This document shows, piece by piece, positions 21,547 to 30,606 of a stretch of 44,736 nucleotides of DNA (positions are counted from its first letter, which is position 1; each line of letters starts with the position of its first letter). The stretch is from a virus. Below the pieces are notes generated by a model. That model made no database searches, had not been told where the DNA came from, and saw nothing but the letters and a program-made list of their open reading frames with translations. Location: IMG/VR virus record IMGVR_UViG_3300036770_006570, positions 1-44,736 of that record; one strand, 5' to 3'. The position numbers were made by a program, and so were the translations under genes.

Positions 21547-23091
21547 TTAAACATTAGAAACTTCAGTTTCTAACTCTCTTAATTTATTGTCCTCGGGATT
21601 TTCTAAATCAATTTCTGTTGACTTAGCCGAATCACCAAAATCAAAAAATTTATTTCTTACATTCTCATTTGGTCCGCCTTGCAATCTAGCACCTTCGAGA
21701 GATGATAAAAATGCTCTAGATTGATTTGAATCGATCATTTCAAAAGCTTCATCTTTTGATTTTGTATTAAAAAGTTCCTCGACATATCGATCAAAGTAGA
21801 GTATGCTTTTTGGTACCCACTCACTTAAATCTTTTTCTCGTTTGCCCTCGATACCCCACATTCTCCAATCGGGCTTAAATCTAGCAGTTTCGATATCCAT
21901 AAGTTGATTGGCTCTCTGTACTGCGGCAATATGACAATACACATTATGTCCCATCATTAGAGCATAACTGAAACTGTCCCAAGATGTTTTGCCTTCCTTG
22001 CCAATTTTATTCAGCATACCTGGGGAATACCAGCAGATATCTCCCATTGTAAGTCTGCGACCGATTTCGCTTTCAAACGGAAATGGAATCTCACTTTTTG
22101 CTAATGCTTTATTATCTGGGGCTTTGTCCATGATAACTGACCATCGTTTGTTGGTGTGTTGCGCATTAGTATAAACCAAACCATGTGCTGTAGCAATAAA
22201 TGGCGAAGCACAGTCAAAACTAATAGTGAGGTTCGGATTAATATGTTCTCTAATCTGTCTCTGAATGCTAGTTAAGAAACAGCTCCAATCCAACTGTGCA
22301 GTACCAAGGAAGTGAATCCAGTTTTTGCCTTCTAACATTCCTTCATCACGCATGATCATTAAACGCTTAAGTGTGATGTGCATCTTACACATGTTAGCAC
22401 CACCAAACGCCCAACCTTCTGCAGCTTTGTCTCCCCACACTTTGCTGTCGCTGAATTCTTTAACACCTTGATACCACTGTTCGGCAGTATCCCAATCTGA
22501 CCCCTGTAACACATTTAAAAACTTGGTTTGACCTAGACGATTCTTTAAGAAATATTCATTATTAAATCGAGTTTTTTCTAGACAGTCTTCGAACGACTTA
22601 AGACCAGTTTTAGGACTGTGAATATGATCGCAAGCCCAAGTCGGCACATCTAACATCATCGACCAATCAGCAGTCAATTCAAGCCACTCTAATATTTGCT
22701 GTCGAACTTTATTTGCTTCTGTTCCTTTAAAGTTGAGCCAATCAAATTTTAATACTCCCTTACCAATCTGATATCCACCGGAGTCGCCTAGAATCATTGT
22801 GTTGTTGCGATCTCTCTGCTGTATCATAGATTCCTGCACCATACTCTTGTTTAGATCTAGTTGAGCATGACCTGCAGAATATAGTGCATATTTGTAGGTA
22901 AAATAGCCTTCCTCTGGATTAAGAAAGTTCATACCTTCGATACTGCGATCAAATCCTGCAGGAATTCTGTCCTTGGGGACAAACTCTTCTAAACGCTGTT
23001 TAGCAACATAGGTGCTGTAAAAACTGCTGATAGCAGGCAAATAGACAGCATAGTCTTTTTGTAAAGGTGTTAGATTAACTTGTTGTTTCAT
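21547..23091 (-). CDS. TGT/DpdA-like DNA transglycosylase candidate
   Basis: 514 aa. Motifs follow tRNA-guanine transglycosylase order: ILGDSGGYQ (Asp103), NVLQGSD (193-199), GWAFGGAN (226-233), HFLGTA (260-265) and SFDCASP (291-297), where Asp293 is the probable nucleophile. TGT exchanges guanine for a 7-deazaguanine base in tRNA; the related DpdA enzymes do so in DNA. It lacks the usual C-terminal CxC zinc motif, is longer than bacterial TGT (~375 aa), and sits in a phage next to the clamp gene and near QueE/QueD-like genes, which favours DpdA over tRNA TGT. That choice is inference. Confidence 0.78.
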   Translation of the reverse strand: MKQQVNLTPLQKDYAVYLPAISSFYSTYVAKQRLEEFVPKDRIPAGFDRSIEGMNFLNPEEGYFTYKYALYSAGHAQLDLNKSMVQESMIQQRDRNNTMILGDSGGYQIGKGVLKFDWLNFKGTEANKVRQQILEWLELTADWSMMLDVPTWACDHIHSPKTGLKSFEDCLEKTRFNNEYFLKNRLGQTKFLNVLQGSDWDTAEQWYQGVKEFSDSKVWGDKAAEGWAFGGANMCKMHITLKRLMIMRDEGMLEGKNWIHFLGTAQLDWSCFLTSIQRQIREHINPNLTISFDCASPFIATAHGLVYTNAQHTNKRWSVIMDKAPDNKALAKSEIPFPFESEIGRRLTMGDICWYSPGMLNKIGKEGKTSWDSFSYALMMGHNVYCHIAAVQRANQLMDIETARFKPDWRMWGIEGKREKDLSEWVPKSILYFDRYVEELFNTKSKDEAFEMIDSNQSRAFLSSLEGARLQGGPNENVRNKFFDFGDSAKSTEIDLENPEDNKLRELETEVSNV

Positions 23092-23434
23092 GTTGACTCA
23101 AATATATTGTTGTTTTTAATTGTTCTTCTGCTTTTAGAAAAGCGTCATACGCGGCTTTTACAGCAGGATTAGTTTTAGCTTTGTCTATGTAGAGTTTTTC
23201 TTCCTTCATCTTTTTCATAGACCATTCGATTGTTTCTATTACATTATCGCTTAATCCGATGCTGGAAAAGCTGTCGGGTATGTCAAGCCAGGTAAATCCG
23301 TCATAGACCTGAAAATGGTTATTATAATACCTAACCATGCTAGAACTGGGATTACTGCTGTTGTAATACACACCAGCAGTATCCCCATTACTAATCCTAA
23401 TAAAAGGATCGGCACTTGTTATTCCACGAATCAT
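23075..23434 (-). CDS. Hypothetical protein, possible structural
   Basis: 119 aa. The beta-rich N-terminal half resembles phage virion proteins (SADPFIRISNGDTAGVYY, NHFQVYDGFTWLDIP), with a helical C-terminal half (ETIEWSMKKMKEEK...AYDAFLKAEEQL). It overlaps the sliding-clamp stop (TAATG) and the transglycosylase start. Its location among replication genes is at odds with its structural look, so its role is open. Confidence 0.65.
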   Translation of the reverse strand: MIRGITSADPFIRISNGDTAGVYYNSSNPSSSMVRYYNNHFQVYDGFTWLDIPDSFSSIGLSDNVIETIEWSMKKMKEEKLYIDKAKTNPAVKAAYDAFLKAEEQLKTTIYLSQHETTS

Positions 23435-24168
23435 TAGGTCTGTGCCGGAATAATGTATTTGTAGATAGCCAAACCACTATCTAATTCAATCTGCATAGCG
23501 CCTTCGTTTGAAAAACTAATAGTGGTATTGTTGTTGTCGGCAATCTTTAGAATGCTTAGAACACTATTAACCGGCCATGTCCATCCTTTGGTTAGTTTTC
23601 CTGAAACTCCAGTTGCAAATACAAATTCGCCACCGTGAGAAGCAGCATCGCCGAATGTAAACTTCAACTTGTCGCCATCTGTTTTGGCAAGGAATGTGGT
23701 ATGTTCTGTGTTAGCACCCGCTTGGAACTGAAAACGCTGGATAGCAGCAACGGTTGGAGTTACAACAACATCCCATTTAGCGCCGCGAAACTTAACGGTT
23801 TTTAGTTTCTCGTTAATGATTTCTTGATTCATAAAACGATAATCGTTTTTGAAGTCACCGTCCTTGTTTTCAAAGTGAAGACCAACCGGAACCTTTTCAC
23901 CGTTGCGTTCTGCAACTGTTACTTCAATTTCTGCGTCCTCCTGGTATTCCTTACAGTCTAATAGATAACGAAGCTTCTCTAACTGCGGCATACCAAATAT
24001 TCCCTCCATTTCTGGATGAGGATTGGTAGTTTCGGCATACATGATAACACTTCGGTCATCAGCCATGCTGTCAATTAGAGTCTTGTCTTTAGTGCCTGTT
24101 ACCTTAACAATGTTAAGGAAACCCAATTTATTTGTATGTGATACGATATCAGAGAGAATGTCTTTCAT
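23434..24168 (-). CDS. 45: DNA polymerase sliding clamp (gp45)
   Basis: 244 aa (T4 gp45 is 228). A ring-forming processivity factor for gp43, and in T4 also an activator of late transcription. The N-terminus KDILSDIVSHTNKLGFLNIVKVTG and a clamp-like beta-alpha-beta pattern support the assignment. AAAGGA precedes the ATG. It has its own perfect promoter. The clamp loader genes (44/62), next to gene 45 in T4, are not here; instead the transglycosylase follows. Confidence 0.88.
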   Translation of the reverse strand: MKDILSDIVSHTNKLGFLNIVKVTGTKDKTLIDSMADDRSVIMYAETTNPHPEMEGIFGMPQLEKLRYLLDCKEYQEDAEIEVTVAERNGEKVPVGLHFENKDGDFKNDYRFMNQEIINEKLKTVKFRGAKWDVVVTPTVAAIQRFQFQAGANTEHTTFLAKTDGDKLKFTFGDAASHGGEFVFATGVSGKLTKGWTWPVNSVLSILKIADNNNTTISFSNEGAMQIELDSGLAIYKYIIPAQT

Positions 24169-24224: not shown

Positions 24225-26894
24225 TTAATCAAAGCTGAATAAACTATTGAATGTATTGGTCTGTGTTGTACTATCCAAATCCCATTCCAATACCCCAATG
24301 AGATTTTCAATTTTGTTATTAATAATGGTAGCTTCCATTTCTGCATGATCAAACGGTAATTCTTGAAACCATTTAGGTAACCGCAATTCGTCTACCGGAT
24401 AAGCTACGCTAGTAAATCCCAAAGGATTGTCCTTTACTTTACAAACAATGACTTTCATACCATCGACGATTTGCATACTATACTTGTCGCTGTTCATTCT
24501 TCGCAAAGTATTCCAATTAATAGAAGCACGAACATGTCCAGGCATATTAGCTTTACCACTCTTCTTTTCTTTTTCTTCGTATTCAGTAATGTTGTTAGCA
24601 CGTTTAGGCGACCCTTTTTCCCAACCTGGTCGTGCTTTGAATTCGACTCGAAACTCGCTAATGCGATCAAGGATTTCTTTTTCTTCAGCACCATTTAGTA
24701 CACGACCGAGTATTTCTTCTAAAAATTTCTGCATGAATTCTGGAGTGTCCGATCTTTTAAGATCTAACCCCATTGCTTTGATTTTGCCAGGTTTACTGTC
24801 TAGGTCTTGTCGTTTGCCTTCTTTATCAAAATACAATACAGCGTATCGTTTCTTCGTGATGAATAATCCTTTAATAGCAACTATTTCTCGTCCTGCCTTA
24901 ATTACTTCGCCGCGACTTTTTGGACAATGAAATGCTTCTTGCATAAAATCTACGAAACTACTGTTCACATTTTCTGCAACAGTATCATAGAGCTTGATTA
25001 CAGTATCTTTGTCCCAAGGTATCTCGCCCTTAGCAATTTCATTTTTAAGACTGTTGTAAGCACTAAAGTAAGCACTATCTGTATCGCCGTAGATAATAGC
25101 TTTACCAACATGATCATAGTCTCCTGTTACTACTTCGTTAATCTTCGCAGCCATATGCTTGGCAATTTGTCTGCCAGTTAATGTAGTCGATTGACCAATG
25201 CGATTATCAAAGAATCTACATCCTGGATTTAGAATTGCACCGTAAAGAGAATTAAGATTAATCTTTTTAACTAACTGACGCTTGTCCCAGTATTCTTCTT
25301 CGATCTTGTTTTCTGCTTTAATTGCTTCTTTGAGTTTTGCTTGCATTTCCTTACGCTCAGCATACCATCGTTTTAGCAATCCAGGAATAATACCCTCGTT
25401 TTCGTTACTGAAAATTGTGCCGTTAGCACTCAACATCCATGGTTTTCCGCTGTTGAAAATCAATTCGTAAATCTGTGCACCACTCATTATATCAGTTTCT
25501 CCGTTTTCCCAATCAATGACAATATCATTGACACGGTCCTGATTCATAACCATTTCATACTCATTAGTGCCAAACTTACCTTCCCATGCAGCGGCAAAAC
25601 TGCTACCTTTAGCAATCTTCTGTTCGATTTCTGTTTTGGTGTATTCTTGTCGCAGCTGACCGACAATGGTTTCTGGACCCATGTTTAATGCACGAATCAC
25701 TGATGGATACAGTGAGTTAATATCCATAGAACCGATCCAATCATGCAACCCTTTTTTAGGATAAGCAACATATGCACCTGCTGCTTGATTGTTTACATCG
25801 TCGTCTCTTTTAGGACGACTAGGTACAATCATACCCCTATGATGTGCTTCGTTTACAATAGCCTGCTCAGTGACAGCAACAGCACCCATTGTGGTGGATA
25901 ACAACACAGTATTTTCGTGAGCAATCGTATTTGCTAGATCAATAAATTTTAATTTTCTATCTAGTTTGTTGAGTAGAGAACAGTCCTGTCTATTATACTC
26001 GATAAACTTTCGAAAATCATTATTGTAAAGTTGATCAAGAGTTCCTTCATATACAGTTTTACTTTCTCCTACCTCCATTTCACCGATGGCATCCAATCGG
26101 TATGTATGGCGTTCTTCGTAGGTATATTTGCGATAAAGCTCTAGACTGTCTAAATGTACTCTTCCTACAAAATCATAAGTTACAGCAGTTTTTCCGTATT
26201 TTTCATATTCTCGTTTCTTGGGCATTTGCCCCCACAAACAAAATCTGCGTGTATCTTCTTTGCTTAATACTTTAGTAACACGGTTTACTGTGTAAGGAAT
26301 ATCGTAGCCTTCCGAGTTCCAACCGCTTAACACATCAGCATCTTCGATGAGATTCAAGAATGTGTCCAACATTTCGTATTCTGTTTCAAATAGAATAGTA
26401 TTAGGAAAGTCTTTAACTAATTCAGTAGCTTTCTCTATAGTTAGAGTCTTTGGAGGCACAGCCAGACATACAAGGGTATCTAACCATTGTAAATGAATAG
26501 CAATAGAAGTAATAGGCATGAACGCATCATCAGGACTTGCATATCCTCTTTCCGGATCAAAGTCAACTTCGATGTCGAAGAACGCAACATTTAATTTTGG
26601 TGCATCCTTGCCTATATAATTTTCTTCTAGGCAACGAAATACTTGGTTAATATCACTTTCGTATAATTTGTGATGACCGTGAATACGCTGTTCTTTAATA
26701 AATTCTTTATGGCTTTTGGCAGTTACCTTGCTGAGAGGTTCGCCGTGGATTGATCTATATTTTCCCTTTGCATCAGGATAATAGAAAAAGTATTTTGCAG
26801 AATAATCTTGATATATTCTGCCTTTCTTAGAATCTCGTTCGACAACTCGAACAATATCTTGGTCGCGATCCCAGAGCGCGTCTACATAACTCAT
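24225..26894 (-). CDS. 43: DNA polymerase (gp43, family B)
   Basis: 889 aa, close to T4 gp43 (898) and intact. Exonuclease motifs are FDIEVD (Asp107, Glu109), WNSEGYDIPY and the YNRQDCSLL region. Polymerase motifs are SMDINSLYPSVIR (motif A), LNSLYGAIL (motif B) and YGDTDSAYFS (motif C). The C-terminus NTFNSLFSFD resembles the clamp-binding tail of T4 gp43. The AGGA signal directly follows a hairpin of 5 bp with an 8-nt loop, and a second hairpin with the same loop lies upstream, suggesting translational autoregulation. Confidence 0.97.
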   Translation of the reverse strand: MSYVDALWDRDQDIVRVVERDSKKGRIYQDYSAKYFFYYPDAKGKYRSIHGEPLSKVTAKSHKEFIKEQRIHGHHKLYESDINQVFRCLEENYIGKDAPKLNVAFFDIEVDFDPERGYASPDDAFMPITSIAIHLQWLDTLVCLAVPPKTLTIEKATELVKDFPNTILFETEYEMLDTFLNLIEDADVLSGWNSEGYDIPYTVNRVTKVLSKEDTRRFCLWGQMPKKREYEKYGKTAVTYDFVGRVHLDSLELYRKYTYEERHTYRLDAIGEMEVGESKTVYEGTLDQLYNNDFRKFIEYNRQDCSLLNKLDRKLKFIDLANTIAHENTVLLSTTMGAVAVTEQAIVNEAHHRGMIVPSRPKRDDDVNNQAAGAYVAYPKKGLHDWIGSMDINSLYPSVIRALNMGPETIVGQLRQEYTKTEIEQKIAKGSSFAAAWEGKFGTNEYEMVMNQDRVNDIVIDWENGETDIMSGAQIYELIFNSGKPWMLSANGTIFSNENEGIIPGLLKRWYAERKEMQAKLKEAIKAENKIEEEYWDKRQLVKKINLNSLYGAILNPGCRFFDNRIGQSTTLTGRQIAKHMAAKINEVVTGDYDHVGKAIIYGDTDSAYFSAYNSLKNEIAKGEIPWDKDTVIKLYDTVAENVNSSFVDFMQEAFHCPKSRGEVIKAGREIVAIKGLFITKKRYAVLYFDKEGKRQDLDSKPGKIKAMGLDLKRSDTPEFMQKFLEEILGRVLNGAEEKEILDRISEFRVEFKARPGWEKGSPKRANNITEYEEKEKKSGKANMPGHVRASINWNTLRRMNSDKYSMQIVDGMKVIVCKVKDNPLGFTSVAYPVDELRLPKWFQELPFDHAEMEATIINNKIENLIGVLEWDLDSTTQTNTFNSLFSFD

Positions 26895-26983
26895 ATTTTT
26901 CTTCCTTACCGCTTATGGCCGGTATACCATCACAATAGCGACTTATGGCTCGCTGTGCCTTACTCTAAAATATTTAGCGGCCG
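26895..26983. other. Intergenic region between the methyltransferase and DNA polymerase genes
   Basis: Eighty-nine bases with no gene. It holds the two hairpins, a GGTATACC palindrome (26921-26928) and an extended -10-like TGGTATACC on the minus strand without a good -35. A CTAAATATTTTAG inverted repeat lies near the far end. Confidence 0.6.
26903..26957 (-). promoter_or_regulatory. Tandem identical-loop RNA hairpins before gp43 (candidate translational operator)
   Basis: Minus strand, distal hairpin 26937-26954: AGCGA-GCCATAAG-TCGCT, extended by an outer CAC/GTG pair (26955-26957 with 26931-26933) across a 3-base bulge. Proximal hairpin 26907-26924: TACCG-GCCATAAG-CGGTA, followed directly by AGGA (26906-26903) and the ATG at 26894. 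Both have 5-bp stems of unlike sequence and the same 8-nt loop, 30 bases apart. T4 gp43 represses its own translation through one hairpin of 5 bp and 8 nt next to its Shine-Dalgarno. Confidence 0.75.
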
Positions 26984-27610
26984 TTATTGCCAGCTTAACA
27001 ATTCTCCGTCATAATTGGGATCACCATACGCCCATTGCGGCTTTCCTTCGGTGTGATTCCAATTTACATAGGATTCTCTTGCCTTTTTATGAACAACAGT
27101 CATATTACTAGTTTTACCATTAGTTGCTTCGGCGTTAGTTTCTACTAATTTAATTTCTTCAAAATGTTCACGAACAAATTTAATTGCGATATCAAAATCA
27201 AAATCTCGTCTAGTATCGTGAAATATCATAACCCCGCCAGGCTTAAGGAATTTCCAAGTAGCGTCGGCAAAAGGTTTTCTTTGCCACCAAATACCGTCAA
27301 CAAATATTAAGTCGTACTCAAATTTTGGTATATCTTTGAGAAACTCAAAAAGATCATGAAATTCTGGTAAAGTTTTATTTTGAAGACTTTCAACACGCTT
27401 GCGAGTAACTTCAATCCATTTGTCTCCGCCGGTAACATTAGTATCAACCGAAATTAACTTCTCCGGTAAACATTGCGCAAATATCTGCGTACTACCGCCT
27501 ACACCGAACTCTAATATATTGATACTTTGTTTACCGTATTTGGCAAGAGTATCGGCGTCCTCTAAACTGAGATCGCCGATAAACTTAATTTTTGCTAAAA
27601 ACTTTAGCAT
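26984..27610 (-). CDS. Class I SAM-dependent methyltransferase-like protein
   Basis: 208 aa. The Rossmann SAM motif is NILEFGVGGSTQIFA, motif II-like LISVDTNVTGG, and the post-I strand YDLIFVDGIWW with the following LKPGGVMIFHDT. These fit small-molecule or protein class I methyltransferases; no DNA target-recognition domain or NPPY motif is present, so a DNA adenine methylase is unlikely. Its ATG overlaps the dsbA stop. Substrate unknown. Confidence 0.8.
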   Translation of the reverse strand: MLKFLAKIKFIGDLSLEDADTLAKYGKQSINILEFGVGGSTQIFAQCLPEKLISVDTNVTGGDKWIEVTRKRVESLQNKTLPEFHDLFEFLKDIPKFEYDLIFVDGIWWQRKPFADATWKFLKPGGVMIFHDTRRDFDFDIAIKFVREHFEEIKLVETNAEATNGKTSNMTVVHKKARESYVNWNHTEGKPQWAYGDPNYDGELLSWQ

Positions 27611-29786: not shown

Positions 29787-30157
29787 AATTTTTTATTCCA
29801 TTGCGCTACTGGGCTTACAGTATTAACCTGATCAGGCTCACCGCTATGTAAATCCCCGCCATTTAAATCATAATAATCTGCGCCAATAAAATCGTATGCT
29901 TGTTTAAGCATTTTATCTTCGGCTTTAGTATAAGGATGTGCAGTTTTCATTTTACCGTGCCAAGAAATTTGATCCATATTTTCTATAGGATTTTCGCCAT
30001 CGGCGCCGGCAACTGCTAAACCTAATCTATACTGTACATAATCTGAGCTGGCCTTGCCGGCAGGGTCGTGAAATGTATGAATTCCTGTACTAGCTAAATG
30101 GAATCTTCTAGGAATTTTTCCATTCTTTTTTTCAACGATGAATTCTCTAGCTCTCAT
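29783..30157 (-). CDS. Hypothetical protein
   Basis: 124 aa, likely virion-associated by location. It starts MRAREFIVEKK, a form seen at the N-termini of several marine-phage structural proteins (compare MRLQEIIQLEE in the gene at 31175). The rest is soluble and His/Asp-rich (GKMKTAHPYTKAEDKM, YYDLNGGDLHSGEPDQ) with no motif I recognise. ATGA junctions at both ends. Confidence 0.65.
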   Translation of the reverse strand: MRAREFIVEKKNGKIPRRFHLASTGIHTFHDPAGKASSDYVQYRLGLAVAGADGENPIENMDQISWHGKMKTAHPYTKAEDKMLKQAYDFIGADYYDLNGGDLHSGEPDQVNTVSPVAQWNKKL

Positions 30158-30606
30158 ATCGTGCCTGCATCTCTCTTCATGCTGGCTCTTAGCATCCAGC
30201 CGTGTTTGCGGTGTGCGTCCATTCTTGCTGCAAAGAAATCACTGAATCCATGTTCACCTTCTGCTTCTGAAACATCAAAGCACATTTTAAAAATCTTTAA
30301 CATTTTTTCATTGTCTTTGATCAATTCAGAGACCATTTGGTCTTTTGACAAGATGTCAGTTTCGTCGTCTATCTTAGTCAGCATGTTGAAGCGATCATAA
30401 CTGCCCGGAACATAGCTGCCAATACTGCGAATTCTTTCAGCGAACCCGTCGATGCTACTGTAAACTTCTTCGTAGATTTTACCAAATAAATCGTGATATT
30501 CTAAAAAGTCAGAACCTTCAACATTCCAGTGAAAGTTGTGTGCTTTTAGATAAAAGCTAAATTCGCTTGCAAACGCTATTTTACTATATTGAATTAACTT
30601 TTCCAT
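30154..30606 (-). CDS. dps: Dps-like ferritin
   Basis: 150 aa, the size of bacterial Dps. The ferroxidase ligands occur at exact spacing: His26, His38, Asp53 and Glu57 (in HNFHWNVEG, YHDLFG and IDGFAE), the H-x11-H-x14-D-x3-E pattern of Dps. Dps dodecamers oxidise and store iron and protect DNA from peroxide; some bind DNA. Its place in the structural operon suggests late production and possibly packaging in the virion. Rare in T4-like phages. Confidence 0.88.
   Translation of the reverse strand: MEKLIQYSKIAFASEFSFYLKAHNFHWNVEGSDFLEYHDLFGKIYEEVYSSIDGFAERIRSIGSYVPGSYDRFNMLTKIDDETDILSKDQMVSELIKDNEKMLKIFKMCFDVSEAEGEHGFSDFFAARMDAHRKHGWMLRASMKRDAGTI

Follow-up and report, generated by a model that had tools for sequence, protein, structure and literature searches.

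We identified two tandem pseudoknots in the leader of a phage replicative DNA polymerase gene which together probably form a translational operator for self-repression by the polymerase, gp43, as the inferred ligand (we place the probability of this reading at about 0.6). Comparison of leader sequences points to a conserved RNA fold with both helices maintained, a location restricted to gp43 and contact with the Shine-Dalgarno (SD) sequence, and on this basis the predicted structure and its placement are well supported. The leader lies in the window, the 44,736 nucleotide stretch of DNA analysed here (IMG/VR record IMGVR_UViG_3300036770_006570).

Pairing in the window leader and its close relatives

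The minus-strand leader of the 889 amino acid polymerase (GCTAAATATTTTAGAGTAAGGCACAGCGAGCCATAAGTCGCTATTGTGATGGTATACCGGCCATAAGCGGTAAGGAAGAAAAATATG, with the ATG at 26894) reads AGCGA-GCCATAAG-TCGCT ... TACCG-GCCATAAG-CGGTA-AGGA from 26957 to 26903. A first-pass annotation had described two perfect 5-bp hairpins with a common 8-nt loop, 30 bases apart, with the proximal one next to the SD of gp43. Both hairpins are indeed present with their loops starting 30 nt apart, the proximal one abuts AGGA, and the protein downstream is of the T4/RB69 gp43 family. The window contains 148 perfect 5-bp/8-nt hairpins on its two strands, among which only the leader pair has an identical loop, and none of 200 dinucleotide shuffles yielded a same-loop hairpin pair within 100 nt. 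The pair is not explained by chance.

The first three loop nucleotides of each hairpin are complementary to a GGC or GGU further upstream, a GGY about 1-4 nt before each stem being complementary to the loop GCC. As this GGY pairs with the loop, each unit is predicted to be a compact H-type pseudoknot (Table 1), and the fixed GCC would therefore be a paired strand rather than a free loop. The order within a unit is GGY (S1), L1, S2 strand, GCC (S1′), NNAAR (L3), S2′ strand. Across the family S1 has 3 bp, L1 1-3 nt and S2 5-7 bp (4 in some), with no loop between the stems and an A-rich L3 of 5-6 nt ending in AAR. A third unit was sought without success. Minimum free energy folding of the window leader gave no signal (z -0.51), as expected of a folding program that cannot draw pseudoknots.

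Table 1 Features of the gene 43 leader in the window, in the order in which they are read on the minus strand
Feature	Position	Strand	Basis or detail
Putative late-promoter -10-like box GCTAAATA	26971..26978	-	likeness to T4 box TATAAATA
Predicted pseudoknot 1	26937..26959	-	crossed pairing, 42 distinct units
Pseudoknot 1 S1, GGC with GCC	26959-26957 with 26949-26947	-	
Pseudoknot 1 L1, AC		-	
Pseudoknot 1 S2, AGCGA with TCGCT	26954-26950 with 26941-26937	-	
Pseudoknot 1 L3, AUAAG	26946-26942	-	
Predicted pseudoknot 2	26907..26928	-	crossed pairing, 40 distinct units
Pseudoknot 2 S1, GGU with GCC	26928-26926 with 26919-26917	-	
Pseudoknot 2 L1, A		-	
Pseudoknot 2 S2, UACCG with CGGUA	26924-26920 with 26911-26907	-	
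Pseudoknot 2 L3, AUAAG	26916-26912	-	
Shine-Dalgarno AGGA	26903..26906	-	sequence; directly 3′ of pseudoknot 2
Gene 43-type DNA polymerase, family B, 889 aa	24225..26894	-	Pfam, phmmer, PHROG

A scan of IMG/VR with the window polymerase retained 80 loci, all of them metagenomic contigs, with gp43 about 81-91% identical; together with the window these give 62 distinct leader sequences. Two units precede the gp43 start codon in 62/62 distinct leaders (80/80 close relatives, with units identified by scanner, visual reading or model). A strict scanner first missed unit 1 of L003, which has one mismatch in S1 pair 3 (GGU/UCC) and was read directly from the sequence, as well as unit 2 of L004 and of L034/L035/L037. 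With covariance model R2, unit 2 is recovered in L003 and L034 and, as a weak match, in L004.

The proposal that the RNA shape is under selection is borne out by compensatory stem changes in all relatives, both in unit 1 (GATCA/TGATC, AGCGA/TCGCT, GGTCG/CGACC, AGCAA/TTGCT, TATCA/TGATA) and in unit 2 (GCCG/CGGT, GTGG/CCAC, GTGA/TCAC, TGTCA/TGACA, TGAGA/TCTCA, TGCAA/TTGCA, TGTAG/CTACA, TGTAA/TTACA, TGTCT/AGACA, TGGGA/TCCCA). The stems of the two units are unrelated, as had been noted, their inner 4 bp being alike in none of 59 leaders. Stem covariation around a fixed loop sequence had been anticipated among related gene 43 leaders; the covariation was found, whereas the loop keeps a pattern, GCC-NN-AA-R with an upstream partner, and loop identity fails as a conserved feature, since only 7/59 leaders carry the same loop twice. 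Loop GCU accompanies upstream AGU (L006, L028, L068) and loop ACC upstream GGU (L051, L056, L057, L069, L078).

Under the crossed structure 97.3% of cells are paired in unit 1 (42 distinct copies; slid controls, at most 52.4%), with two-sided changes in 6/8 pairs, namely all five of S2 and the first of S1, and 92.9% are paired in unit 2 (40 distinct units). On a gp43 protein tree, built like our other gp43 tree by quick methods, there were at least 14 changes of S2 in unit 1 and 29 in unit 2. Changes in S1 pair 1 are few (three switches between G-C and A-U in unit 1, about 3 changes in unit 2) and S1 pair 2 is invariant. Covariation thus falls in both of the crossed helices, S1 and S2, that define an H-type pseudoknot. 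Most units have U-G at S1 pair 3, and S2 also contains G-U pairs, which argues for RNA rather than DNA. The SD core starts 0-2 nt past pseudoknot 2 in 51/59 leaders.

TAAATA resembles the -10 box of T4 late promoters. It occurs no more than 20 nt before the first S1 in 55/61 distinct leaders, against 4.1 in shuffles, and ends 11-12 nt before S1 in 50/61. By consensus match we take the window box to be a putative late promoter and, if this predicted box is used, the 5′ end of the mRNA would fall a few nt upstream of unit 1. TATAAT replaces the late-type box in one sister clade (27/49 leaders).

Distribution beyond the close relatives

Polymerase scans from two sister groups added 157 further loci, most of which keep two elements, the SD-proximal one being a pseudoknot like that of the window with S1 variants GGY/GCC, AGY/GCU, GGU/ACC and AGU/ACU. 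When hairpins were anchored without using S1, the first S1 pair was complementary in 130/130 true leaders (G-C 84, A-U 46, mismatch 0); two exceptions, chance hairpins at loci without a leader, were left out of the 130. A tree of 137 polymerases gives 3 changes in S1 pair 1, 15 in S1 pair 3 and 58 in S2. The SD GGAG and the S2′ strand overlap in 33/80 loci of one sister clade, which would set the fold in direct competition with the ribosome; the SD of the window's clade lies outside the fold.

In the sister clades the distal element usually takes the form of a stem-loop, TC-[stem]-loop-[stem]-A(U/A)G, whose stem covaries. In a subset, about 80-60 nt before gp43, it appears by eye to be a pseudoknot whose 4-bp S1 shows full covariation: AGUC/GACU (L458, L466, L478), UGUC/GACA (L468, L472, L520) and GGUC/GACC (L481). 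The distal stem-loop of the L376-L455 leaders, with a covarying stem and conserved flanks GAGTC...CATG, is a candidate second recognition element. A short upstream ORF beginning at an ATG after the distal stem of sister-clade leaders was considered and rejected, the ATG often being AAG or AGG. The pelagic sister group L215-L294, with gp43 about 67% identical, has no such leader, and the function of the leader is therefore not essential for this polymerase type.

The strict scanner detected a unit in 137/241 distinct leaders and in 5/4,820 shuffles; most scanner-negative leaders have no intergenic leader or an S2 of 3 bp, under the scanner limit. A simple pattern search of large contigs performed no better than its reversed control, and covariance models were therefore used. 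The models R1 and R2, which are small and give rough E-values, matched confidently only at gp43 in ten records of 45 to 229 kb (1.3 Mb total). The leader of the one gp32 gene found in these records (L375 in G002) is without a unit. A blind DNA-pattern scan of viral contigs for two copies of GCCATAAG returned mostly chance matches; six of the contigs fold as pseudoknot units, and in all six the units lie upstream of gp43. A scan of genome contigs gave one distant relative, L201, without a unit. Rfam 15 gave no match at E up to 1 (7 loci) and at E up to 10 (10 loci) only a chance match to snoR126 under the gathering score. No matching unit was found in 17 sampled cultured phages (41-54% identical jumbo phages, cyanophages and Vibrio, Ochrobactrum, Stenotrophomonas, Rhizobium and Tequatrovirus phages), and the scattered matches of looser scans in these phages had another layout and were judged to be chance.

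Candidate readers of the leader and known counterparts

We propose that the gp43 mRNA starts with the two tandem H-type pseudoknots, the second ending where the SD begins. Surplus gp43 not engaged on DNA would bind them, possibly through the S1/L3 face with its invariant AA, and by covering the SD would repress its own translation; two sites could make repression tighter or cooperative. The polymerase is the favoured reader because position and gene match the known T4/RB69 autoregulation, because no other gene in the genomes carries the element, and because the UAA/CAA loop bases recall the T4, RB49 and SELEX operators (PMC3014915). The loops of the units carry [U/C]AA[A/G]; UAAC, CAAC and UAAA loops are important in T4, SELEX and RB49 operators (PMC3014915). 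Members of the T4/RB69 gp43 family repress their own translation, although not every T4-related gp43 protein does so (PMC3014915). The identity of only about 25-30% to cultured T4-type gp43 counts against this reading, as do the leaderless pelagic group and the few changes in S1 pair 1 and the invariance of S1 pair 2. The footprint would look no different if the reader were a small ligand or some other RNA-binding protein of phage or host. Such autorepression of a polymerase would follow a route not described before; a text search of a collection of papers for gp43 with pseudoknot returned just T4 reviews and unrelated aptamer papers.

The textbook example of a polymerase that regulates itself is T4 gp43 with its operator, which was also the first target of RNA SELEX. 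As of a 2010 review the gp43 RNA-protein complex was unsolved (PMC3014915). The window leader is like the gene 43 operator of T4 and RB69 in gene and polymerase family, in a site upstream of and adjoining the SD, and in a 5-bp stem and 8-nt loop containing [U/C]AA. The first-pass annotation accordingly proposed that a plain T4-type hairpin operator had been duplicated and carried a new free loop, and the hairpins do match the Tequatrovirus hairpin AGCCT-AATAACTC-GGGCT in dimensions (5-bp stem, 8-nt loop) and lie next to the SD. The T4/RB69 operator is however one free-loop hairpin with 'no evidence' of a pseudoknot in T4 (PMC3014915), whereas the window leader has two predicted pseudoknots with GCC paired to upstream GGY in place of a single hairpin with an unpaired 8-nt loop bearing UAAC/UAAA. 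The upstream GGY/AGY covaries with loop GCC/GCU/ACC in 130/130 leaders, which a free loop would not need, making this version very improbable: the duplication stands and the free loop does not. In architecture the leader is nearest to the gene 32 pseudoknot of T4/T2, its logic being that of T4 gp43 autorepression. The gene 32 pseudoknot of T4, T2 and RB69 is likewise a compact H-type fold close to the 5′ end of the mRNA of a replication gene, with a very short L1 across S2 and no inter-stem loop, and is possibly the sole viral pseudoknot in translational autoregulation (PMC3014915, 2010 review). It differs in being a single copy about 67 nt upstream, followed by A+U-rich UUAAA repeats for cooperative spreading, whereas the units described here precede gene 43, in two copies with the second touching the SD. 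As that review sees no pseudoknot in the gene 43 operator, the window element would act in the manner of a gp43 operator yet lies outside the single-free-loop definition of the T4 operator. T4 gp32 binds the pseudoknot of its own leader, which has the same topology (PMC3014915, PMC535899), and the leader shows only that something reads it; the reader could thus be another replication-sensing phage protein (a gp32-like SSB, a RegA-like repressor, a clamp or an unknown one). This we consider unlikely, as the motif occurs at no other gene in the ten records, including the sole gp32 gene, and a trans regulator usually has its own or several targets.

Small H-type pseudoknots can also act as riboswitches, preQ1-I being an example. 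An RNA structure that sets translation or stability without a protein, whether by controlling SD access, by ribosome stand-by, by protecting the 5′ end or as a switch for a small molecule or ion, would be in keeping with this use, with the SD inside S2 in one sister clade and with units starting near the predicted 5′ end; the small fold and A-rich L3 beside the SD are indeed shared with preQ1-I-type riboswitches. The units however lack the covariance-model match and the loop between S2 and S1′ of the latter, no Rfam riboswitch was matched at E up to 10, 22-23 nt offer scant space for a ligand pocket, positions 1-2 of L3 in unit 2 vary freely and the SD is outside the fold in the window's clade, so that we give this explanation only a slim chance. 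The units might instead act at the DNA level before gp43, as protein-binding palindromes or single-stranded initiation sites. A precedent exists in the STAXI motif (Weinberg 2010), tandem pseudoknots by genes of DNA-handling proteins once discussed as possible ssDNA structures (PMC2864571), although STAXI usually has three repeats, frequent UUCG tetraloops and other gene contexts, and the window leader has no Rfam match. The G-U pairs of both helices, the complete replacement of half-site sequences with pairing kept and the fixed position relative to the SD leave a DNA role with almost no probability. Returning to autorepression by gp43, we lean slightly towards regarding these leaders as a new operator class, built of H-type pseudoknots in tandem, spread widely among uncultured T4-type phages and read by the replicative polymerase, in which the distal element is exchangeable (pseudoknot or stem-loop) and the proximal pseudoknot is fixed at the SD. 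More than a hundred natural variants, some pairing a stem-loop with a pseudoknot and others with two pseudoknots, provide ready material for studying which features the polymerase would recognise and the evolution of operators.

The polymerase and its neighbourhood

By sequence similarity the window polymerase belongs to the T4/RB69 gp43 family (Pfam PF00136/PF03104; phmmer match to RB69 gp43 3kd1, E 9e-62; phrog_262). Its identity is about 25-30% to the polymerases of Tevenvirinae and cyanophages and up to 54%, over the best-matching part, to those of cultured jumbo phages. The region upstream of the leader is by eye very different between relatives, and the leader therefore seems to travel with gp43. 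A Methyltransf_24 protein (26984-27610, -) lies immediately upstream of gp43 and a phage-encoded Dps/ferritin-like protein (Pfam Ferritin, E 6e-18) at 30154-30606 (-). A 514 amino acid protein (21547-23091, -) has no Pfam, PHROG or NCBIfam match and by eye some likeness to tRNA-guanine transglycosylase-like (DpdA) proteins. Just downstream of gp43, the size and place of a 244 amino acid protein of phrog_12062, which has no known function (23434-24168, -), suggest a putative sliding clamp; a clamp is annotated close to the polymerase in the cultured phage Phosso.
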